A stretch of DNA of 20,550 nucleotides from a virus. Below are positions 4,181-20,550 of the stretch, in pieces. Location: the IMG/VR virus record IMGVR_UViG_3300037502_001828, positions 1-20,550 of that record; one strand, given 5' to 3'. How positions within the stretch are numbered: position 1 is the stretch's first letter; each line of letters opens with the position of its first letter. Under the pieces are notes generated by a model. The model ran no database searches, was not told the DNA's origin, and saw nothing but the letters and a program-made list of their open reading frames with translations. Made by a program: the position numbers and the translations under genes.

Positions 4181-4563
4181 TGGCAACTGGTTTAAGTGCT
4201 TACACAGCAAATAAATTTCTTGATGCTTTAGGAAACGCAACAGCATTTTCTGTTACAGATGTTTACATAAAACTTCATGTGGGAGACCCAGGTGCAAATG
4301 GAACAAGTAACCCTGCAACTGAAACTACAAGAAAACTTGTGACCTTTGCAGCAGCATCAAATGGAAGCATTGCATCAGACGCAGCAGCAACTTGGACAAA
4401 CATTGTAGGTTCACAAGACGCAACACATTTTACTGCTTGGGATAATTTAACTACAGGAAACTTTTTATTCTCAGGAACAATTACCTCAAATCCTTACACA
4501 GCAGGAGACACTGTAACGATTGCTTCAGGTTCTTTAACTGCATCTCTAACAGTCGCAAGCTAA
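4180..4563 (+). CDS. Small phage structural protein (LHVGDPGANGT family)
   Basis: 127 aa, starting in a TAATG overlap with the portal gene. It begins MATGLSAYTANKFLDALGN and carries LHVGDPGANGTSNPATETTR (residues about 28-47), a motif I recognise from small phage virion proteins variously annotated as tail fibre-like or head-fibre/decoration proteins. The rest is Ala/Thr/Ser-rich with alternating beta pattern (NFLFSGTITSNPYTAGDTVTIASG), suggesting a compact beta domain. It sits directly after the portal gene and before a repetitive protein, in the head block. A virion surface role is inference from family and position. Confidence 0.6.
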   Translation: MATGLSAYTANKFLDALGNATAFSVTDVYIKLHVGDPGANGTSNPATETTRKLVTFAAASNGSIASDAAATWTNIVGSQDATHFTAWDNLTTGNFLFSGTITSNPYTAGDTVTIASGSLTASLTVAS

Positions 4564-4567
4564 AACA

Positions 4568-5275
4568 ATGAGTGCCACAGGCTCACTCATTCTTGATTCC
4601 GAAGTCAGAGGAATTTTAGATACCAATACGTTGTATGGTACGGCTGAAAACATTGAAGCCACAGGTTCATCAAATCTAAATGGTTTATCTTCATCAGCCA
4701 CAGCCTCTGTTGTTAATCCTCAAACAGCGCAAGCCTTGCTTGGTGCTATCACTTCAATATCATCAGCAGATGTAGCACATTTTGCTGAGGGTGCTACAAA
4801 TCTTGGTGCACTTGAATCTTTAGTTGAAACAGTTATTACAAAAACAGTTTCAGCGCAAGCCTTGTTTGATTCATTATCAGCTCAAGCAGAAATAAACATA
4901 AATGTTGAATCGGGTGCTGAGTCTTTATTTGGTGGCCTTGAGAGTTCAGCAACTTTAGGTGTAGTTCTTGAGGCTTCAGGGGAAGCAAATCTTGGTGGGC
5001 TTTCTGCGTCAGGTACAGCAACAGGTGGAGAACCACCAGTTCCCCCAACACCTGAACCTGTTTATGGTTCAAGAGGTTATGTTCAAAAGAAAATCAAACC
5101 TAAACTTGAACCTGTTTTTGAACCTGAGATTCCTAAAATTGTTCAAACAAAACCATTAAATAAAATTGTTCTAATTAAAGCCAACACCCTAGCATCAAAT
5201 TTTAATGCCTCTGCCGAAATTCGTATAGACTTTTCAATAAGACAAGATGAGGCAGAATTGCTTCTTTTAATTTAG
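4568..5275 (+). CDS. Repetitive structural protein with 21-residue repeats
   Basis: 235 aa. Six units spaced 20-22 residues start near residues 33, 53, 75, 95, 116 and 137 with a shared pattern like G(A/S)xxLxGLxSSAxAxV: GSSNLNGLSSSATASV, TAQALLGAITSISSA, GATNLGALESLVET, SAQALFDSLSAQAE, GAESLFGGLESSAT, GEANLGGLSASGTA. A degenerate copy (ANTLASNFNASAEIRI) follows at about 205-220. Between them lies a Pro-rich linker (GEPPVPPTPEPV) and a Lys/Pro-rich segment (KKIKPKLEPVFEPEIPK). The regular period suggests a beta-solenoid or fibrous trimer. I do not recognise a named family. Its place between the portal and the protease suggests a head fibre or decoration protein, which is inference. ATG 4568 lies 4 nt after the previous stop. 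Confidence 0.6.
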   Translation: MSATGSLILDSEVRGILDTNTLYGTAENIEATGSSNLNGLSSSATASVVNPQTAQALLGAITSISSADVAHFAEGATNLGALESLVETVITKTVSAQALFDSLSAQAEININVESGAESLFGGLESSATLGVVLEASGEANLGGLSASGTATGGEPPVPPTPEPVYGSRGYVQKKIKPKLEPVFEPEIPKIVQTKPLNKIVLIKANTLASNFNASAEIRIDFSIRQDEAELLLLI

Positions 5276-8924: not shown

Positions 8925-8954
8925 CCTGCGTAATATTTGGAGTCCTGCGTGAAT
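8925..8954 (+). repeat. Direct repeat CCTGCGT-(G)AAT around the ribosome site
   Basis: CCTGCGTAAT (8925-8934) and CCTGCGTGAAT (8944-8954) form a short direct repeat on either side of TTTGGAG (8937-8942). The second copy covers the first two bases of the GTG start at 8949. Either copy can pair with GCGCAGG in the loop of hairpin 1 (8870-8876), six Watson-Crick pairs plus one G-U. Confidence 0.5.
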
Positions 8955-10178
8955 CGTGAAGAACGAAGAGCTTTAGCAAAAAATAAAAAAGTTGATAAAT
9001 CAAAACCTGCCAGAATCCTTTGGGTTTCTAATGCCCCCTGGGCCAGTACAGGTTATGGAACACAAACAGCACAATCAACAATCAGATTAAAACAACATGG
9101 CCACGAAGTTGCTATTGCAGCAAATTATGGTTTAGAAGCAAACACAACAAATTGGAACACGCCTTTTGGTGACATAAAAATTTATCCAAGAGGTCATGAG
9201 CAATGGTCTAATGACATTATTCCTGCTCACATGTATGACTGGTCTCAAGAAGACCCTGAAGCACAAAATCTTCTCATCACTTTGTTTGATGTTTGGGTTT
9301 TTCGTGGAGATAGATGGTCTGATTGGAATGTTGCTTCTTGGACACCAATTGACCACATGCCAGCACCACCTGATGTTATGAAATGGTCTAAACAAAAATT
9401 TGTTACACCCATTGCAATGAGTCAGTATGGTCAAAAAATATTTGAGAACTCTGATGTTGAATCATTGTATGTGCCTCACGCAATTGAACCTGTTTTCAAA
9501 CCAACAGAAAAAGTTAAATATAACAATACTGTTTTGACTGCTAGACAGTTGATGAATATTCCTGAAGATAAATTTGTTGTTGGAATGAATGCAGCAAATA
9601 AAGGTGTGATGCCTAACAGAAAAGCGTTTGGCGAAAACATTTTAGCGTTTTCAATGTTTGCACAAAAACACAGAGATGTTGTTTTGTATTTACATACTGA
9701 AGCTAGTGGTTCTTTGGGTGGAATTAATTTAAGAGATTTAATTTTGTCATGTGGCATTCCACAAGACCAAGTTATTTTTGCTGACCCTTATCTTTTAAGA
9801 ACTGGTATGCCTCAAGATATGTTGGCTTGTATATACACAGGTATGGATGTTTTGCTTGCAACAAGTTATGGGGAAGGGTTCGGTATTCCTACAGTTGAAA
9901 GTTTGGCTACAGGTACACCTGTTATTGTTTCCAACTTTGCTGCATCTGCTGAACTTTGTGGTGATGGTTGGCTTGTTGGTGGGCAACCTCTTTGGAATGC
10001 ACCTCAAAAGGCTTGGTTTCATTTGCCATCTGTTCCTGAGATTGTTGATTCACTTGAACAGGCGTATAACAGAGGTCGTGAGCGTAGTCAGAAAGCAATT
10101 GATTTTGCTAAGCAATATGATGCTGATAATGTTTTTGAGACACATTGGAAACCAGCACTCACGAAACTGCTTTCCTGA
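8949..10178 (+). CDS. Glycosyltransferase, GT-B fold, family 4-like
   Basis: 409 aa from GTG 8949, chosen because GGAG (8939-8942) lies 6 nt upstream; a TTG at 8937 would overlap that site. The N-terminal Rossmann half starts at ILWVSNAPWASTGYGTQTAQ (about 23-42), with the Gly-rich loop typical of GT4 enzymes. The C-terminal half has the donor-binding E-x7-E motif in GEGFGIPTVE (E309, E317), followed by LATGTPVIVSN. The enzyme would move a sugar from a nucleotide donor; donor and acceptor cannot be read. It opens a five-gene cassette inserted in the structural operon, so the acceptor may be a virion protein (capsid or tail tube) or a host cell-wall glycan. It is cytoplasmic, with no membrane segment. 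Confidence 0.88.
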   Translation: MNREERRALAKNKKVDKSKPARILWVSNAPWASTGYGTQTAQSTIRLKQHGHEVAIAANYGLEANTTNWNTPFGDIKIYPRGHEQWSNDIIPAHMYDWSQEDPEAQNLLITLFDVWVFRGDRWSDWNVASWTPIDHMPAPPDVMKWSKQKFVTPIAMSQYGQKIFENSDVESLYVPHAIEPVFKPTEKVKYNNTVLTARQLMNIPEDKFVVGMNAANKGVMPNRKAFGENILAFSMFAQKHRDVVLYLHTEASGSLGGINLRDLILSCGIPQDQVIFADPYLLRTGMPQDMLACIYTGMDVLLATSYGEGFGIPTVESLATGTPVIVSNFAASAELCGDGWLVGGQPLWNAPQKAWFHLPSVPEIVDSLEQAYNRGRERSQKAIDFAKQYDADNVFETHWKPALTKLLS

Positions 10179-10238
10179 TGCCTGTTAAAAGCAAAATAAA
10201 GGCAAAATTAGGCTAGAACTGATGGGGGGAATACTCGT

Positions 10239-10898
10239 TTGATACCTGCGCTGATAGTTCCTGTGTTGGTCAGATACGACCTTTTGGACAGAATGATTGC
10301 CTCAATCAACTATCCGATTAAAGATTTAGTTGTTATTGACAATGGGGCTAAGGCTAATTCTTGGCATCCTGTTTGGAATAACTGGGTTCACAAAACTCAT
10401 CACATTAAACTTCCTAGCAATTTTGGGGTGGCAGGTTCTTGGAATCTTGGAATTAAATCTTTACCTTTTTCTGATTATTGGTTGATTTCAAATTTTGATG
10501 TTGAGTTTGGTGGGGATGCTTTACAAATGTTTGCTGAAAAATCTCATCCTGAAAAACTTTTATTATCTGGGGGTGCACCTGAATGGTGTGCTTTTTCTGT
10601 TGGTTGGAAAGTTGTAGACAAGGTTGGTTTATTTGATGAGTCTTTGCATCCAGCTTATTTTGAGGATAACGATTTTGAAAGAAGATGTTTAGAAAACAAT
10701 ATGACTGTTGAACATTCTTTTATCCCTGTGGCACACGATAACTCTTCAACCCTTAAAGCAGGGTTTCAACATTTGAATGACACAACTTTTGCAGACAACG
10801 CTTCGTATTATCAACAAAAAATTGCCAACAAAGATTTAACTGAGGGAAAATGGTCTATCAGGAGAAGAAGAAGAAATGCTTGGGACAATGAAAGCTGA
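10239..10898 (+). CDS. Glycosyltransferase, family 2-like (GT-A)
   Basis: 219 aa, TTG start at 10239 with GGGGGGA (10224-10230) 8 nt upstream. It opens with the GT-A strand ALIVPVLVRYDLLDRMI and VVIDNGAK (31-38), then the family segment LPSNFGVAGSWNLGI (58-72). The metal/donor region is ISNFDVEF (83-90), where a classical DxD reads DVE, and a second acidic cluster YFEDNDFERR (140-149) fits the catalytic base region of rhamnosyltransferase-like GT2 enzymes. Size is small for GT2 but complete. The C-terminus is very basic (SIRRRRRNAW). It overlaps the next gene by 23 nt. Substrates are unknown; the neighbours suggest a short oligosaccharide built in steps. Confidence 0.8.
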   Translation: MIPALIVPVLVRYDLLDRMIASINYPIKDLVVIDNGAKANSWHPVWNNWVHKTHHIKLPSNFGVAGSWNLGIKSLPFSDYWLISNFDVEFGGDALQMFAEKSHPEKLLLSGGAPEWCAFSVGWKVVDKVGLFDESLHPAYFEDNDFERRCLENNMTVEHSFIPVAHDNSSTLKAGFQHLNDTTFADNASYYQQKIANKDLTEGKWSIRRRRRNAWDNES

Positions 10899-11487
10899 TG
10901 TAACAATTTGTACTGCCACAATTCCAACTAGGTCAGAACTTTTGAAAAGAGCTGTAAGAAGTGTGGAAAATCAAACTCTGCAACCTGAAAAACATTTAAT
11001 TAAACTTGATGAAAAACGTGAGGGACACGTTGCAATGTTGGATGCAATGATTGCTGAAGCAAACACAAAATATGTTGCAATTCTTGATGATGATGATGAA
11101 CTTTTACCAAGACACATTGAAGCAATTTATGGTGCGATTGAAGAGACAGGTGCTGACCTTGTTTATCCTTGGTTCAAATATTCAAGTTTGCCTGATGGTG
11201 GGCATTTACAAATATATGCTTACAAACCTTGGTCTAACGCAAATGTTCATCAAGTGCCTATAACTTGGATTGCTAAACGTGAAGCCTTGCTAGAAGTTGG
11301 GGGTTTTTCTAAAGGTTTTGATATTGATAGTTATGAAACAGATTTTCAGGGCAATCGTATTGGTCATGATTTTGTGATGATTAAAAAACTTGTAGAGGCA
11401 GGTAAAGTTATATACCATCACCCAGAATTAACTTGGATTTATCATGTTGGTCACCCATCAACTTTAGGGATGCCTTTGAGATGGTAG
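10876..11487 (+). CDS. Glycosyltransferase, family 2
   Basis: 203 aa. It starts with the GT2 strand VTICTATIPTRSELLKRAVRS and has VAILDDDDELLP (68-78) with the DxD metal site at D71-D74. A C-terminal GHDFVMIKKLVEAG stretch corresponds to the catalytic/acceptor region. The start is put at ATG 10876, with AGGAG (10860-10864) 11 nt upstream; ATG 10888 is in frame and possible but has a poorer site. It overlaps the preceding gene by 23 nt and the following one by 7 nt (ATGGTAG), so the three GT2 genes are translationally coupled. Confidence 0.85.
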   Translation: MLGTMKADVTICTATIPTRSELLKRAVRSVENQTLQPEKHLIKLDEKREGHVAMLDAMIAEANTKYVAILDDDDELLPRHIEAIYGAIEETGADLVYPWFKYSSLPDGGHLQIYAYKPWSNANVHQVPITWIAKREALLEVGGFSKGFDIDSYETDFQGNRIGHDFVMIKKLVEAGKVIYHHPELTWIYHVGHPSTLGMPLRW

Positions 11488-12101
11488 ATGTAACAATTAT
11501 TACAGCCGTTTATGGCGAGGGTTATGAACATTTTATTGATGGTTGGGTTGAGGCAATAGATAATTTAGAGGTTAAACCAAAACAAGTTTTAGTTGGTACA
11601 GATAAAAAAAGGAATATTAAATTCAAGCAGCTTGTCAAAGATACAAAAAATGTTAAATGGCGTTCTCCTTTCTTTTGGAATGCGTGTGCTGCAGAAGTTG
11701 AAACAAAATGGATATGGGTTTGTGACATTGACGACAGACTTAAACCTCATGCTTTGAATAATCTTGCAATTCAGGATTGTGATATTTGGCAAGTTGGTTA
11801 TCAAGTACAAAACTCTTATGAAACTTATGTTCCACCTGTTATGAATAATCAACAAATATTTACTGAGCCTTATTGTTTTTTTTGCTGCGCTTCACCAATT
11901 CAAAAGTCTTGGTGGGAACAATGTCATTACCCTGAAGTTGCTTACGCTGATTGGGCTATGTGGAGAAAGTCTGCCAGGTTAGGTGCACGTTTTGGTTTTG
12001 CTAACGAGCCTCTTTATGATTATCGAAAAGATTTTGCTAATTCAATGTCAGGTTGGGCTGATGCTGATGCAAATAACAGAAAAGAAGCTCTTGAATATTA
12101 A
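11481..12101 (+). CDS. Glycosyltransferase, family 2-like, divergent
   Basis: 206 aa from ATG 11481, which overlaps the previous stop; an upstream in-frame ATG at 11433 lies deep in the previous gene and is unlikely. The N-terminus MVDVTIITAVYGEGYEHFID and WIWVCDIDDRLKPHAL (77-92) give a GT-A fold with DID/DD at 82-85 as metal site. The middle is rich in Trp and Cys (FFCCASPIQKSWWEQCHYPE), and YADWAMWRKSARLG fits the late acceptor helix. The sequence is more divergent from standard GT2 than its neighbours, so the activity is less sure. It is the fourth transferase in the cassette. Confidence 0.7.
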   Translation: MVDVTIITAVYGEGYEHFIDGWVEAIDNLEVKPKQVLVGTDKKRNIKFKQLVKDTKNVKWRSPFFWNACAAEVETKWIWVCDIDDRLKPHALNNLAIQDCDIWQVGYQVQNSYETYVPPVMNNQQIFTEPYCFFCCASPIQKSWWEQCHYPEVAYADWAMWRKSARLGARFGFANEPLYDYRKDFANSMSGWADADANNRKEALEY

Positions 12102-12711
12102 ACAATTCAAAAAACAATTCAAATTGCAAACCCCTAAAATAATTGGTGAATCAAAAATACAAGGGTGGGGGTCTGATAGTCCAGCATTTTCAAAAGTGAT
12201 TGAAATTACTAAGCCTAAAACCATTATTGAGGTAGGCACATGGTTAGGGGCCTCAGCTTTTTTTATGTCAGAACTTTTAGAACAACAAAATATTGATTTT
12301 GAAATGATTTGTGTGGATACATTTCTTGGTAGCAATTCTGATTTGTGGATTGAACAACATTTAACAAATTTGAATACTAAGTTTGATTCAATATATAATC
12401 AGTTTTGTGTGAATGTCACAAATAAAAATTTGAACGACAAAATCACACCTTTACCAATGACCTCATCAAGTGCAGCAGAACTTTTACAAAAATTTGATGT
12501 TAAAGCTGATTTGATTTACATAGATGCAGGTCATAGGGAAAGAGAATTATATGCTGATTTACAGGATTGGTGGCCTTTAGCAAAAAAAGGCATCATTGGT
12601 GATGATTACAGTCCAACGTGGCCTGGTGTCATGGCTGGTGCTGACAGATTTGCAAATGAGAATAATTTGAATTTAGAAATTGTGGATTCTAAGTTCTTAC
12701 TAATCCGATAG
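12067..12711 (+). CDS. Class I SAM-dependent methyltransferase (Methyltransf_24-like)
   Basis: 214 aa from ATG 12067; a TTG at 12091 is an alternative with a shorter overlap (11 instead of 35 nt). Motif I is TIIEVGTWLGASA (about 52-64), the acidic end of strand 2 is ICVDTF (81-86), and the later motif is LIYIDAGHRERELYADLQDW (149-168), followed by KKGIIGDDY. This layout matches Methyltransf_24/CmcI-like enzymes that often O-methylate sugars in glycan gene clusters. Last gene of the cassette, so methylation of a sugar added by the preceding enzymes is a reasonable inference. The N-terminus is basic (NIKQFKKQFKL). Confidence 0.82.
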   Translation: MQITEKKLLNIKQFKKQFKLQTPKIIGESKIQGWGSDSPAFSKVIEITKPKTIIEVGTWLGASAFFMSELLEQQNIDFEMICVDTFLGSNSDLWIEQHLTNLNTKFDSIYNQFCVNVTNKNLNDKITPLPMTSSSAAELLQKFDVKADLIYIDAGHRERELYADLQDWWPLAKKGIIGDDYSPTWPGVMAGADRFANENNLNLEIVDSKFLLIR

Positions 12712-15218: not shown

Positions 15219-17473
15219 TGGCAATTATTGTCCCGATTTTAACAACTTTTAACGATAAAGGAATCAAGTCTGCTGTAAGAGAATTTCAAACAGCAACGAC
15301 TGCTATACAAAAATTTGGTGCGACAGGTAAAATATTTGAGGGTATCGGTAAAGGTTTAACAAAGAATGTAACAGTTCCTATCATTGGTGTTGTTGGCGCT
15401 TTAGGAATGATGGTCAAAGGGGCTATAGAAGCTGAGGCTGCACAATCAAGATTAAAGCAAATTCTTTTAACAACTGGTGGTGCATCTAGCGCACAAGTTG
15501 ATGTTCTTTTGAAACAAGCTGCTGCATTAGAAAAGATTGGAGTTGTTTCAAAGGAAAGCATTGTTACGACACAATCACAATTAGCAACTTTTGATTTACA
15601 AGCCAGCACTATTGCAAAACTGACACCTGCGATTCTTGATTACGTAACTGCTGAAAAAGGCGCAATGGCCACAGCAGATGATTTCAAATCTATGACTAAT
15701 GGTTTAGCCCAAGCCTTAAATGGTCAATTTGGTGCTTTAACTAGAGTTGGTTTCGTTTTAGATGAAGATACTAAAAAGAAAATTTCTAATGGAACTGAAT
15801 CTGAAAGAGCAGCAGCAATAGTTGAGGTTCTTAACTCAACTTACAAAGACTTCAATAAATCTTTAGCAGAAACACCTCAAGGTCAAATAATTTTATTGTC
15901 AAGAGAGTTTAGTCAATTAAGGGATGAATTAGGTTCTGCTTTTATTCCAATTGCTTTACAGATTTCTAAAATAATTCGTGAACAAATTCTTCCACAGTTA
16001 CAAAGATTTGTGGACAGGATTAAGGCTTTAAGCCCAGAAACAATTGCCTTAGCAACAAAAATTACATTCCTTGTTGCTGCTATAGGACCTTTGTTGATTG
16101 TTATTGGAAAAGTCATTGGCGCAGTCAAAGGATTTATTGTTGTTTTCAAAGCACTATCTTTAGCATTATTAACCAACCCTATTTATTTAGTAATTGCAGG
16201 TTTGACCTTATTGGGTATTGCTATCTTCAGGGCTTGGCAAACCTCAAATCGTTTCAGAGAGGGATTAGCAAAATTAGGAAACATTATTGTTGGGGTTGCT
16301 CAAGGGGCAATAAATTTATTTATTAAATTAATCAACCAATTCATTAAAGGATTCAACACACTTGTTCCTGTTTTGAAATTCTTTGGCGCAGACGTTGAAA
16401 AACTTGGTGAAATTAGTGAAGTTTCTTTTGCCAAAATCTCATTTGGCTCAGTTGATGCAGGTAAAAAGATTACTGGATTAAGTGAAGAAGCAAGTGATTT
16501 AACTTCAACTTTTAATTCAGATTTGACCCCATCAATTGACGACACAACAGCTTCTTTGACCAGAAATGCTTCAAAGTCAGAAAAAGCTAAAGATGGATTG
16601 AAAAAGTTAAGAGAAGAAGCTAGAAAAGCAGCACAAACAATTGTTGATAATTTAGAAGATTCTTTAAGAAGTGCTGAAAGTAAACTTGATGACGCAAGGA
16701 ACGCTTTTGAGAATTTCAAAAATTCTATAAAAGGTGTTGTTGCTGGTGTTTTGAACTTTGGTAGAGCTGCTGAGGATGGCAGTTTCATTGAAAATATAAC
16801 TAATCAAGCTGCTCAAGCAACAGTTTTTGCTGACAAAGTTAGAAAACTTATTGTTGGTGGTTTGTCTGAAAGGGCAATCAAACAAGTTTTAGATGCAGGT
16901 TTTGAAGCAGGTTCAAAGATTGCTGATGAAATTATTGCTGGTGGCACAACAATGGTTCAACAAGTGAATGCTTTAGTTGATTCTGTTGATTTTATTGCTA
17001 ATGAAGTTGGTGTGTTTGGTGCTCAAACTTTTTATCAAGCAGGAGTGTCTCAAGGTGAGGCTTTAGTTGCTGGGATAAGAGCAGCATTAGAAAATGCTAG
17101 AGCAGAATTAAAAAGAATTGTTGATTCTTTAGCAACTGGAGACCCTGTTGCACCGAAAACTACAAAAACAACAAAAACTACAGGAAAAATTACAACTGTT
17201 CTTCCACCAGATACTTCTGGTTTTGGGTTGAATAGATTTTCACGTATGGCTAAAGGTGGAATTGTTCTTGGTCCAACTAATGCTTTGATTGGTGAAGCAG
17301 GACCTGAAGCCGTTGTTCCTTTATCAGGTGCTAATTCAGCAAAACTTGGAACAACTTACAACATTGTTGTCAATGCTGGTATTGGAACTTCAGGTGCTCA
17401 AGTTGGTAGAGAAATTGTTGATGCCATTAAAAAGTTTGAGAAAACTTCTGGCCCTGTATTTGCGAGTGCTTAA
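15218..17473 (+). CDS. Tape measure protein
   Basis: 751 aa, the longest gene in the window, in TAATG overlap with the preceding gene. The N-terminus (GIKSAVREFQTATTAIQKFG) and VPIIGVVGALGMMVKGAI (53-70) are tape-measure-like. A hydrophobic stretch spans about 283-338, and a charged coiled-coil-like region covers 452-505. A Thr/Lys linker lies near 646-660, and the C-terminus has KGGIVLGPTNALIGEAGPEAVVPL (about 679-702), the frequent end motif of this family. At about 1.5 angstrom per residue it implies a tail near 110 nm, an estimate from the family rule. It fixes tail length and is ejected with the DNA. No lytic peptidase domain is evident. Confidence 0.93.
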   Translation: MAIIVPILTTFNDKGIKSAVREFQTATTAIQKFGATGKIFEGIGKGLTKNVTVPIIGVVGALGMMVKGAIEAEAAQSRLKQILLTTGGASSAQVDVLLKQAAALEKIGVVSKESIVTTQSQLATFDLQASTIAKLTPAILDYVTAEKGAMATADDFKSMTNGLAQALNGQFGALTRVGFVLDEDTKKKISNGTESERAAAIVEVLNSTYKDFNKSLAETPQGQIILLSREFSQLRDELGSAFIPIALQISKIIREQILPQLQRFVDRIKALSPETIALATKITFLVAAIGPLLIVIGKVIGAVKGFIVVFKALSLALLTNPIYLVIAGLTLLGIAIFRAWQTSNRFREGLAKLGNIIVGVAQGAINLFIKLINQFIKGFNTLVPVLKFFGADVEKLGEISEVSFAKISFGSVDAGKKITGLSEEASDLTSTFNSDLTPSIDDTTASLTRNASKSEKAKDGLKKLREEARKAAQTIVDNLEDSLRSAESKLDDARNAFENFKNSIKGVVAGVLNFGRAAEDGSFIENITNQAAQATVFADKVRKLIVGGLSERAIKQVLDAGFEAGSKIADEIIAGGTTMVQQVNALVDSVDFIANEVGVFGAQTFYQAGVSQGEALVAGIRAALENARAELKRIVDSLATGDPVAPKTTKTTKTTGKITTVLPPDTSGFGLNRFSRMAKGGIVLGPTNALIGEAGPEAVVPLSGANSAKLGTTYNIVVNAGIGTSGAQVGREIVDAIKKFEKTSGPVFASA

Positions 17474-18699
17474 TGTCAATCCCTGCCACAACTGTTGAAG
17501 TTGGTTTTGATTTATCAGCTCTTGGTGGACCTTTCTTTATCCTTGATGACCCCGTTCAAGGTGTTTTAGATAACACAGAGTACACACTTGGTGGAACTTT
17601 GTTTTATGACATTTCTGAATATGTTCGTTCTGTTTCCATTGCTAGAGGTAAGTCACGTCAGTTAGATAGATTTACAGCAGGTGGTGCAAATATTGAATTA
17701 AATAACAATGATAGGGCTTTTGACCCTGTAAACACAGCAAGTCCTTTCTTTGGTCAAATCATTCCTAAAAGAACAATCAAAATTGAAACTGGTGGTTCAG
17801 CAGTTTTTTATGGCGTTGTTGATGATTGGAATTTAAGTTATGACATTTCAGGTTTATCAACTGCTGGTGCTGAATGTGTTGATGGTTTCACTTTGCTTGC
17901 ACAAAGAGCTTTAACTGCTAGTACTGAAACTTCACAAAAAACTGGTGCAAGAATTAACGCAATTTTAGATAGAAGTGAAGTTAATTGGCCGTCATCTTTA
18001 CGTGATATTGATACTGGTGCAACAACTGTTCAAGCTGACATTATTGAAGATGGAACTAATGCTTTGGAATATTTGCAGTTGGTTACAAGTACTGAACCTG
18101 GTTCTATTTTTATGGGTGCTGATGGTTTCATTGTTTTTAAGGACAGAAGTGTTGCACCTGTTTCAACTGGTCTTGTGGTTTTTGCTGATGATGGTTCAGG
18201 TGTTGAGTTTAGTGAAGTTCAAGTTGTTTACGGCTCAGAACTGTTATACAACTATGTGCAGGTTGAAAGAAATAATGGTGGAACAGCAATAGCGTTTGAT
18301 ACTGATTCCATTAACTCTTACGGCCAACAAGCTCTTATTCAGTCAGGTCTTTTAATGAACTCTGATTCTGATGCTTTGGAGTTAGCAAACTATCTTCTTG
18401 GCCAATATTCTGAGCCTGAATATCGTTTTGAGACTCTAACAGTCCAATTAGAGGCTATTTCACCAACTGACCAAGCAAACGTGTTAGGTCTTGAAATTGG
18501 GGACACAGCACAGATTAAATTCACCCCTAATAATGTTGGGTCGCAGATAGACAAATATGCAACTATTATTAAGATTGACCATGAGATACTTCCAATGTCT
18601 CACAGAATTACTTTTGGTTTCCAAACCTTAGATTATGCAAGTTTGGTTTTGGATGACTTAGAGTTTGGTATCCTAGACACAAATCGTTTAGGTTTTTAA
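17473..18699 (+). CDS. Minor tail protein (baseplate/tail tip)
   Basis: 408 aa, TAATG overlap with the tape measure gene. It is beta-rich, with phrases common to actinophage minor tail proteins: YDISEYVRSVSIARGKSRQL near 46-65, TAGGANIELNNNDRAFDP, FYGVVDDWNLSYD and a final FGFQTLDYASLVLDDLEFG. A combined distal-tail/tail-hub role is likely because no other hub protein is seen before the fibre gene. It is probably the platform to which the fibre encoded next attaches. The stop is followed by AAGGAG, the ribosome site of the fibre gene. Confidence 0.78.
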   Translation: MSIPATTVEVGFDLSALGGPFFILDDPVQGVLDNTEYTLGGTLFYDISEYVRSVSIARGKSRQLDRFTAGGANIELNNNDRAFDPVNTASPFFGQIIPKRTIKIETGGSAVFYGVVDDWNLSYDISGLSTAGAECVDGFTLLAQRALTASTETSQKTGARINAILDRSEVNWPSSLRDIDTGATTVQADIIEDGTNALEYLQLVTSTEPGSIFMGADGFIVFKDRSVAPVSTGLVVFADDGSGVEFSEVQVVYGSELLYNYVQVERNNGGTAIAFDTDSINSYGQQALIQSGLLMNSDSDALELANYLLGQYSEPEYRFETLTVQLEAISPTDQANVLGLEIGDTAQIKFTPNNVGSQIDKYATIIKIDHEILPMSHRITFGFQTLDYASLVLDDLEFGILDTNRLGF

Positions 18700-18708
18700 G
18701 GAGTCGTA

Positions 18709-19422
18709 GTGGGTTCAGGTTTCAGAACGTTCACAGCAGGAGAAGTTCTTACTGCTTCAAATGTGCAAAATTATTTAATGGACCAAAGCGTTATGGTTTT
18801 TGGTGGTTCTGCTGCTAGAAGCTCTGCTATCGGTACAGCAAACTTTGAAGAGGGAATGGTTTCTTATTTAACTGATACTGACAAAGTTGAAGCCTATAAC
18901 GGCACAAATTGGGTTTCTGTTGCCCCAACAACCTCACAAGGTTTAACTTTAATCAATACAACTAGTTTTAGTGCAGTAGCAAGTCAATCTATAAATGATG
19001 TTTTTAGTGCAACTTATGAAAATTACAAAATTTTAATTAACACAACTAATTCCAATGCAAATGGTTCAATTGCAATGCGTATGCGTGTTTCAGGTGCAGA
19101 CAATACTAACAACGAATATACAAGAATGAGACTTTATTTTGATACAAGTAATACTTCTGCCGCAGATAATGGTTCTGGTGGTACTTCATCTTTTTTGGTT
19201 GGCAATTTACAAACAACTTCTGGAAGTCAAACAAGTATAGAATTATCATCACCTTTTTTAACTGAAAGAACAAAACACGTAACACTTGCAAACCAAACCT
19301 TAAATGGTTTTATTTTATCAGGGACTACAACAGTAACAACTTCATACACAGGATTTACAATACTACCGATAACTGCTGTAAGTATGACAGGAACTGTTAG
19401 CGTTTATGGATATAACAAATGA
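18709..19422 (+). CDS. Tail fibre / receptor-binding protein, expressed orientation
   Basis: 237 aa, GTG start with AAGGAG (18698-18703) 5 nt upstream. The N-terminal module (1 to about 80) has GFRTFTAGEVLTASNVQNYL, MVFGGSAARSSAIG and FEEGMVSYLTDTDKVEAYNG, the usual virion-anchoring start of actinophage tail fibres. From S88 a beta-rich C-terminal module of 150 residues follows, ending TGTVSVYGYNK. A paralogue of only this second module lies on the opposite strand at 19857-20339. The two share their first about 20 residues (SAVASQSINDVFSATYENY) and last 11, and differ in the middle, as expected for alternative receptor-binding tips. This gene is the functional analogue of Mu gene S (constant plus variable part). 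Receptor specificity is unknown. Confidence 0.8.
   Translation: MGSGFRTFTAGEVLTASNVQNYLMDQSVMVFGGSAARSSAIGTANFEEGMVSYLTDTDKVEAYNGTNWVSVAPTTSQGLTLINTTSFSAVASQSINDVFSATYENYKILINTTNSNANGSIAMRMRVSGADNTNNEYTRMRLYFDTSNTSAADNGSGGTSSFLVGNLQTTSGSQTSIELSSPFLTERTKHVTLANQTLNGFILSGTTTVTTSYTGFTILPITAVSMTGTVSVYGYNK
18968..18980 (+). repeat. Inverted repeat, left copy (possible crossover site)
   Basis: TTAGTGCAGTAGC at the junction of the constant and variable fibre modules. The same 13 bases occur inverted at 20299-20311, in the same reading frame of the silent module (AGT GCA GTA). Similarity continues inward with about 85% identity over 59 nt by eye. Outward, TAGTTT is also shared after a 3-nt offset. 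Confidence 0.65.
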
Positions 19423-19432
19423 GGAATAAATA

Positions 19433-19657
19433 ATGGCTATTGAAAAAATTATGGTTGGTATTGACGACCAAGTTATTGAACTCAAAGGTGCAGACAAAGA
19501 AGCGTTCTTGGCAGATAGAGAACAAACTAATGCCCGAATTCTTACACTCGAAGCCAAGGAGTCCGAAAGAAAGCAATTAAGAATAGATGCTATTACTAAA
19601 CTTGGTGCTGCCTCTGGACTTACAGAAGAAGAAATTAACTCAATCTTAAATATTTAG
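19433..19657 (+). CDS. Tail-fibre-associated small protein (chaperone-like), + copy
   Basis: 74 aa, with GAGGAA (19421-19426) 6 nt before the ATG and 10 nt after the fibre stop. It begins MAIEKIMVGIDDQVIELKG, has a charged, coiled-coil-like middle (LADREQTNARILTLEAKESE) and ends DAITKLGAASGLTEEEINSI. The AITKLGxASGLTxxEIN end is common in small phage proteins placed after tail fibres (XkdW-like). A fibre assembly or trimerisation role, as for Mu U, is inference from position and pairing. Its closest relative is the minus-strand copy just downstream, about two-thirds identical by eye. Its last 12 bases overlap that gene's end. Confidence 0.7.
   Translation: MAIEKIMVGIDDQVIELKGADKEAFLADREQTNARILTLEAKESERKQLRIDAITKLGAASGLTEEEINSILNI
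19445..19482 (+). repeat. 38-nt near-perfect inverted repeat, left copy
   Basis: These 38 bases match the reverse complement of 19821-19858 with two differences. The identical core GGTATTGACGACCAAGT is 17 nt (19457-19473). It covers the start of both small genes (KIMVGIDDQVIEL) and is better conserved at DNA level than the rest of either gene. Confidence 0.8.
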
Positions 19658-19873
19658 TATTGCGTTTATTTCGTCAGTTGTTAAACCTGATGCTTCGCCT
19701 AATTTAGTTATTGCATCAACACGTTTCTGTTGTTTTTCTAATGCTAAGGCTTCAAGTAGTAATGTTGCTTGTGCTGTTGCTTCTCTATCTGCAATAAAAT
19801 CTGTTTTGTCTTGACCAGTTAGTTCAATCACTTGGTCGTCAATACCGACCATAATTTTATTTGTTGTAGCCAT
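19646..19873 (-). CDS. Tail-fibre-associated small protein (chaperone-like), inverted copy
   Basis: 75 aa on the minus strand from ATG 19873; a GTG at 19879 is also in frame but would extend the protein without support. The start lies inside the end of the minus-strand fibre module, with GGTGAG about 5 nt upstream. The sequence MATTNKIMVGIDDQVIELTG...DAITKLGEASGLTTDEINAI aligns along its whole length with the + strand copy. The two genes converge on the palindrome TAAATATTTA (19647-19656), where both stop codons lie. This corresponds to U' in the Mu plan. In the orientation shown it is probably silent, because no promoter or upstream coding frame on the minus strand is evident. Confidence 0.7.
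   Translation of the reverse strand: MATTNKIMVGIDDQVIELTGQDKTDFIADREATAQATLLLEALALEKQQKRVDAITKLGEASGLTTDEINAILNI
19647..19656. repeat. Palindrome at the centre of the convergent pair
   Basis: TAAATATTTA is self-complementary and contains parts of both stop codons (TAG at 19655-19657 on +, TAA at 19646-19648 on minus). It marks the symmetry centre of the inverted cassette. It is short and AT-only, so it is not a terminator by itself. Confidence 0.5.
19821..19858 (-). repeat. 38-nt near-perfect inverted repeat, right copy
   Basis: Reverse complement of 19445-19482 with two differences. It lies at the 5' end of the minus-strand small gene. Recombination across this pair would exchange only the small genes' 3' parts; the outer repeats would exchange the fibre tip as well. 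Confidence 0.8.
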
Positions 19874-20339
19874 ACACACTCACCGTTCCAGTTATATTTC
19901 CTGCTGTTGGAATTAAAGTAAACCCATCATAAGAAGTTGAAACATTATGTCTACCACCAATAGAACCAATAGAAGCACTATTTGTTACATAATTACTAAA
20001 TACACTTAAATACGTAGCACTTGCTTTAGCAGGGTCAAATAAATGCAAAGCGCCTAATTCATAAGAAGTTCCTGAACTATTTACGACAATATCAAAAGAA
20101 GTTTGACTTGATGCTGCTGTTGTTGAAATTGTTGAACTCACTCCTCTAATTCTTTGCCATTCATAAGCGGAAGTACTAGCATCAGCACCACCAACCCTTA
20201 ATCTTAAAGTAAGACCAGAATCTGAACTGTGTAAAGTATTAAATACAATTAAATAATTATCATAAGTTGAACTAAAAACATTGTTAAAAGATTGAGTGGC
20301 TACTGCACTAACACAAACTAAATTTATGCTAAGTTGCAA
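19857..20339 (-). pseudogene. Silent alternative tail-fibre C-terminal module
   Basis: 160 codons on the minus strand from a TTG at 20339, but an in-frame TAG stands directly before it and no good ribosome site is seen (AGGAA is about 15 nt away). The product lacks the virion-anchoring N-terminal module of the + strand fibre. From S11 it aligns with S88 onward of that fibre (SAVATQSFNNVFSSTYDNY) and ends with the same TGTVSVYGYNK; both segments are exactly 150 residues, with a divergent middle. The frame is intact, so it is better seen as a stored cassette than a decayed gene. It matches S'v in the Mu G segment. It would become active only after inversion or recombination with the expressed gene. 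Confidence 0.7.
20299..20311 (-). repeat. Inverted repeat, right copy (possible crossover site)
   Basis: GCTACTGCACTAA on the + strand, the reverse complement of 18968-18980. On the minus strand it reads TTAGTGCAGTAGC in the AGT GCA GTA frame of the silent module, as in the expressed fibre. Confidence 0.65.
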
Positions 20340-20352
20340 CTAGCAAGTTAAG

Positions 20353-20377
20353 TTCCTGCGCTCAAACAACGCAGGAG
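20353..20377 (+). promoter_or_regulatory. Hairpin covering the ribosome site of the last gene
   Basis: TTCCTGCG (20353-20360) can pair with CGCAGGAG (20370-20377), seven Watson-Crick pairs and one G-U, with a 9-nt loop CTCAAACAA. The 3' arm contains the AGGAG site (20373-20377) 5 nt before the ATG at 20383, so folding would hide it. The stem uses the same CCTGCG/CGCAGG words as the capsid-downstream structure. Confidence 0.5.
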
Positions 20378-20382
20378 ACAAA

Positions 20383-20550
20383 ATGCGTTTCAAAATAACT
20401 GCACTAACAATCACTTGCGCACTAATCGCAACACCAGCAATCGCATTCACAGAACCATACCCAGGAAGTTATCGTGAAACACGCGACATAACCTGTCCTG
20501 CACAATACCCAATCAAAACAGGTGAGGGTGTAATGGGTGGTGGCTACATA
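20383..20550 (+). CDS. Secreted protein with signal peptide (5' part only)
   Basis: The frame starts at ATG 20383 and runs off the window after 56 codons. AGGAG (20373-20377) lies 5 nt upstream. The N-terminus MRFKITALTITCALIATPAIA is a clear Sec signal peptide: basic start, hydrophobic core, and a predicted cut after A-I-A at residue 21. The mature part begins FTEPYPGSYRETRDITCPAQ and includes a Gly-rich GEGVMGGGYI. It is not recognised. A secreted phage product after the fibre cassette could be an envelope-acting or superinfection protein, which is a guess. Codons end in A and C more than in the fibre genes. Confidence 0.7.
   Translation, partial: MRFKITALTITCALIATPAIAFTEPYPGSYRETRDITCPAQYPIKTGEGVMGGGYI

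Follow-up and report, generated by a model that had tools for sequence, protein, structure and literature searches.

Organization of the fibre locus

The DNA analysed here (hereafter, the window) is an IMG/VR virus record of 20,550 bp, at the 3' end of which an upstream tail protein gene, a fibre gene and a small gene follow each other on the + strand. The upstream tail protein (17473–18699, +) is constant, has PHROG tail matches and shares 45.8% amino-acid identity with the 'putative tail fiber' of Pontimonas phage phiPsal1. The fibre gene (18709–19422, +) is complete and encodes 237 aa; it comprises a constant N-terminal (anchor) part (18709–18967, +) and the active variable tip, tip A (18968–19422, +). 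The next gene, small gene A (19433–19657, +; 74 aa), occupies the position of U in phage Mu. A second small gene, B (19646–19870, −), which is homologous to A and lies in the silent orientation, meets it tail to tail: the ends of the two genes overlap in a central region (19645–19658) that forms a near-palindrome around AAATATTT. It is accompanied by a stored variable tip, tip B (19857–20311, −), which has no anchor but an intact frame, the ORF itself running from 20330 to 19857. The right constant flank (20312–20382), which contains a hairpin (CCTGCG...CGCAGG, 20355–20375) and is conserved in the relatives L009, L012, L035 and L050, is followed by the start of an ORF (20383–20550, +) with a signal-peptide-like N-terminus; this ORF is cut by the contig end and is 98% identical in L009.

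A preliminary description of this DNA had proposed that the fibre and its small gene are mirrored by a minus-strand small gene and an anchor-less tip, and this arrangement is confirmed by the ORFs and by two pairs of inverted repeats (18952–19043/20236–20327, 77%; 19445–19527/19776–19858, 81%). The starts of the two tips are homologous, with 81% identity over 79 bp. No Pfam family matched small gene A. Homologous pairs of small genes are found in all relatives with two cassettes (dual relatives); that small gene A encodes an assembly partner of the fibre is a guess.

The 20,550-bp window contains two and only two copies of TTAGTGSAGTA, one at 18968 (+) and the other at 20301 (−), where a first-order Markov model predicts 0.02 by chance. 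The left copy (TTAGTGCAGTA, 18968–18978, +) has its presumed region of strand exchange, TTAGTG, at 18968–18973; the right copy is the same TTAGTGCAGTA in inverted orientation (20301–20311, −), with its core at 20306–20311. The segment that these two sites delimit from core to core, 18968–20311 (1,344 bp), is exactly the one that had been put forward as invertible, and a homologue of it is found in both orientations (see below). Each site coincides with the boundary between the constant and variable parts of the fibre and encodes S-F-S-A/G-V. The site has 11 bp, is asymmetric and includes an exchange region of 6 bp; it is not a 26-bp dyad with a central dinucleotide. Possible dyad arms flanking the core were sought by eye; they are weak at best and are not claimed.

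Flipping 18968–20311 in silico yields an in-frame fibre of 237 aa, the native length, and thus both modules join the constant part in frame, as had been described. The two tips of the window are 44% identical. Among the dual loci, 10 of the 10 tested have both tips open and a flipped gene in frame (232–243 aa), with 30–44% identity between the tips of a locus, and all dual loci hold two tips only, the several genes of a shufflon being found in none. In the fibres of 26 relatives the first ~86 residues are strongly conserved up to the motif SFS[AG]V, and the sequence is hypervariable beyond it. AlphaFold2 predicts a beta-rich tip for the 237-aa fibre, with pLDDT mostly above 85. The matches from a fold search with this model were weak and of a lectin-like beta-sandwich type; none reached E <= 1e-3, and no receptor class is claimed. 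Overall, the layout supports what had been proposed, i.e., a constant part outside, an order resembling Sv-U/U'-S'v inside and a second, stored tip.

The segment inverts in nature in a near relative of the window

Relatives were gathered by searching with the tail and fibre proteins, and their comparison makes the proposed inversion directly visible. Two IMG/VR contigs from different metagenomes, L008 and L009, have no mismatch over 2,282 bp outside the segment, whereas inside it 1,385 bp are 100% identical but reverse-complemented. At position 7 of the site, L008 has G in the left copy and C in the right one, and L009 the reverse. As this base has moved together with the segment and the flanks have not, the exchange lies within the 6-bp TTAGTG at either end. 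A third sample provided L010, whose orientation is that of L009 where the two overlap. These data show that the segment flips in nature in a near relative of the window, and map the exchange to six bases.

The layout is shared by about a dozen further relatives from different samples. The centre of the segment (about 214 bp) is 96.7–98% identical among many dual relatives, and is in the plus orientation in L008, L071, L083 and L176 and in the minus orientation in L009/L010, L012, L035, L050, L070, L165, L174 and L175. The presence of both orientations among relatives indicates that the orientation has changed repeatedly, on longer time scales too. An exact search of IMG/VR for the window's inverted left junction gave no match; we infer that the window's own segment inverts as well.

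The ends of contigs were also compared with the positions of the sites. The L008 contig ends exactly at the edge of a core and the L092 contig at the end of a site, and 4 of 29 contig ends lie <=10 bp from a site (p about 0.008). Coexistence of the two orientations within a sample would be expected to give such contig ends, which constitute modest evidence for it.

As a separate observation, the 35.8-kb contig of L012 (35,830 bp) has a single cassette at its head (L145, 1–2430) and a dual one at its tail (the end of L146), these two ends representing the same region and being 93% identical beyond the cassette. This contig may be a chimaera of strains and was not used as proof of switching.

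The 11-bp site and the recombinase of the relatives

TTAGTGSAGTA is present at every tip start of the dual loci. In 47 distinct copies from the recombinase/anchor family, its ten fixed bases are 96–100% conserved, whereas nearby synonymous positions vary. The exact DNA of the site is found in 34 of 34 active copies of this family that have the FS[AG]V motif, compared to 8 of 13 tips from phages without the recombinase (p = 8e-4): the 11 bp are fixed as DNA in recombinase-bearing phages, with synonymous drift in the others. The silent inverted copies also keep the site, although the codon preceding it is different there. Conservation of the exact DNA in both active and silent copies distinguishes a DNA site from mere protein conservation. 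The left-junction DNA ACNACTAGTTTTAGTGSAGTA is present in at least 120 stretches of viral contigs, the tip module being very common. Almost all of these contigs with a site-bearing tip module (at least 120) have a single cassette, and no recombinase was seen in them; part of the conservation of the site may therefore reflect shared descent. One match to the right junction, L303, shares no further feature with the locus and was set aside as probably due to chance.

The preliminary description had proposed a search for a serine or tyrosine recombinase. The serine recombinase domain PF00239 was detected in 0 of 35 records, the control genomes being positive, whereas a tyrosine recombinase gene adjoins the segment: it follows it in every dual relative that extends far enough. 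The distance from the right site to this gene is about 30 bp in L014, L074 and L165 and about 0.4–0.56 kb in most others, in which the recombinase comes after an ORF homologous to that starting at 20383 in the window. In L009 this ORF ends at 4219; the recombinase gene begins 8 bp further on and occupies 4227–5060. The window contig stops inside the 20383 ORF, about 0.3 kb short of the expected position of the recombinase.

The recombinase has about 270–277 aa, the size of the armless, XerD-like enzymes, and its catalytic residues R140, K167, H220, R223, H247 and Y256 are invariant. Its best relatives of solved structure are the armless integrase Int gp33 of Brujita (5vfz), XerC-like proteins and XerA. 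It is the sole type of tyrosine recombinase found in the relatives' contigs, which reach 35.8 kb. No relative of it was found among 84,980 species genomes, a collection that may lack the hosts. Reverse transcriptase (PF00078) was detected in 0 of 14 records, and a diversity-generating retroelement was rejected on this basis.

The association between site and enzyme was counted in 53 distinct records with >= 3.5 kb beyond the tail gene. The recombinase is present in 11 of the 11 records with the site and in 1 of the 42 without it (Fisher p = 1.6e-10), although the relatives are not phylogenetically independent and p-values are optimistic. The lone carrier without an exact site, L090, has a site with one mismatch. 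L019 and L089, which belong to the same anchor family and lack the site, show no recombinase over the following 4 kb or so. Judging from these sequences, the downstream enzyme most likely performs the flip.

The recombinase is also kept by single-cassette relatives, which make up about half of the total. On the recombinase tree the single and dual states are intermixed, with 7 changes and no clustering, and the enzyme may have another role such as integration. Recombinase keepers with a single cassette and no second site are L011, L072, L075, L076, L078, L079, L080, L082, L084, L087 and L090.

A different arrangement was observed in L101 (8070–9576) and also in L102 and L103, where two cassettes of tip and small gene lie in tandem on one strand. 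Each starts with a TTAGTGSAGTA-type tip start, the two being in direct orientation, and a third tip is located further on. Direct sites would predict deletion, not inversion; no recombinase was found in these contigs, which are up to 27.6 kb long.

Interpretation and relation to known systems

We consider it very probable that 18968–20311 is a two-state, site-specifically invertible receptor-binding cassette, flipped by the downstream tyrosine recombinase at the 11-bp sites. In the proposed mechanism, the constant N-terminus of the fibre stays outside the segment, within which the two tips and their small genes are arranged tail to tail. The presumed agent of flipping is an armless tyrosine recombinase of small size, whose gene is expected some 0.56 kb beyond the right site; it would act on the inverted TTAGTGSAGTA sites and exchange strands within TTAGTG. 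With each flip, the tip stored until then would be fused in frame to the constant part and expressed together with its small gene, and the two tips would bind different receptors.

Several other explanations were weighed. Inversion could result from general (homologous or microhomology) recombination between similar tip starts, the downstream recombinase being the integrase of the phage. This would fit with the homology of the tip starts in the window, with the presence of the recombinase in single-cassette relatives and with its best database relatives, which are integrases. However, in L008/L009 the stretch in common between the two ends is just 16 bp with one mismatch, and strands were exchanged within 6 bp of it. 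In addition, conservation of the site extends to synonymous positions of its DNA, and the recombinase tracks the site and not the phage group; that no relative of the enzyme was found in the 84,980 species genomes, and no other type of tyrosine recombinase in contigs up to 35.8 kb, also counts against this explanation, which we regard as unlikely. A fixed duplication, in which the minus-strand cassette would be left over from the past or serve as a reserve for slow exchange of modules, the differences in orientation being ancient, is very improbable: the single and dual states do interchange often on the recombinase tree, modules being gained and lost, but the otherwise identical L008 and L009 differ in orientation, i.e., the flip is very recent, which contradicts this explanation for the sister phage, and none of the silent tips tested is damaged or out of frame.

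An assembly error, with the segment placed the wrong way round by way of the inverted repeat, is less probable still. That several contigs end at the site speaks for such an artefact, but the identical repeat measures about 13 bp in the window, and that of L008 has 16 bp with one mismatch. Both lengths are exceeded by the usual assembly k-mers, and the same layout is present in about a dozen relatives from different samples. Finally, we give a small but real weight to the possibility that the recombinase is a dedicated tip-exchange enzyme, responsible both for inversion within a genome and for exchange between co-infecting genomes that share the tip site. If so, tip cassettes would pass from phage to phage through its action, accounting for its presence in single-cassette phages and for the frequent changes between single and dual states on its tree.

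The reading that we favour, a two-state invertible cassette, had initially been formulated as a switch of the Mu G type. In the Mu G and P1 C segments, a serine recombinase (Gin, Cin) acts on 26-bp dyad sites with the help of a Fis-bound enhancer. The anatomy agrees: in both cases a constant fibre part lies outside and a variable part with a small gene, mirrored, inside, giving two states; the inverted sites are located at the boundary between the constant and variable parts, and a recombinase gene is found near the segment (here in relatives). The enzyme class and the site do not agree: a tyrosine recombinase lies beside the segment in relatives, and the 6-bp exchange region belongs to an 11-bp asymmetric site. 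Since the search of 35 records gave no serine recombinase, the system is not a member of the Gin/Cin class. In the R64 shufflon, a tyrosine recombinase (Rci) switches an adhesin tip; this shufflon belongs to a plasmid pilus and has multiple segments and longer sfx repeats.

The preliminary description knew of no well-described example in small actinophage-type siphoviruses. This has to be corrected, since tyrosine-recombinase shufflons of receptor-binding protein (RBP) genes exist in prophages of Bifidobacterium (Rin, with 11-bp crossover repeats; PMC6109161), and a counterpart of Rin in Eggerthella lenta prophages switches RBPs with an 8-bp repeat (PMC8778435). Like the present locus, Rin belongs to phages of Actinobacteria and combines a constant RBP N-terminus with alternative C-termini, an adjacent XerD-like armless tyrosine recombinase (here seen in relatives), a short asymmetric crossover repeat of 11 bp and inversions observed between related genomes (here L008/L009). 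The two differ in several respects: (i) Rin has several tip genes, some of them between direct repeats, whereas here there are exactly two tail-to-tail cassettes; (ii) no U-like partner gene is described for Rin, whereas each cassette has a small gene here; (iii) Rin is found in prophages with a separate integrase, whereas no second recombinase was seen in the metagenomic virus records studied here; and (iv) the Rin repeat is TTCCCTAACCC, compared to TTAGTGSAGTA. By analogy, the locus appears to combine a Mu-G-like two-state layout with Rin-like chemistry, a likeness that concerns the type of enzyme and site. The haloarchaeal virus phiCh1, an archaeal myovirus, has an arrangement different from that of the window. 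According to work cited in PMC8371274 (Rossler et al. 2004, Klein et al. 2012), inversion in this virus changes both its structural proteins and the specificity of its adhesion. Two potential tyrosine integrases are encoded by phiCh1. It resembles the present case in these two respects.

In this group of uncultured phages, near-identical members show the two-state fibre switch in both of its orientations. If it works as we propose, such phages have a second receptor-binding tip ready for use, a point of relevance to how they keep track of fast-varying host surfaces, and tyrosine-recombinase tip switching would extend from gut prophages to a compact, Mu-like layout. With a defined 11-bp site and an enzyme supplied, the system is open to direct testing.

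An actinobacterial host had been suggested, and the host is probably an aquatic actinobacterium, given that phiPsal1 infects Pontimonas and that related contigs belong to a Microbacteriaceae MAG. The nearest cultured relative, by the upstream tail protein, is phiPsal1 of Pontimonas salivibrio (46% aa). In species genomes, matches to the upstream tail protein (44–48%) were confined to one pond MAG and to two contigs of a single Microbacteriaceae MAG; neither the tip nor the recombinase had a match at these loci. We also note that the window contains, at 8937–12711, glycosyltransferase-like and methyltransferase-like genes as a block within the structural region, and that phiPsal1 has annotated glycosyltransferases and a methyltransferase at the corresponding place.
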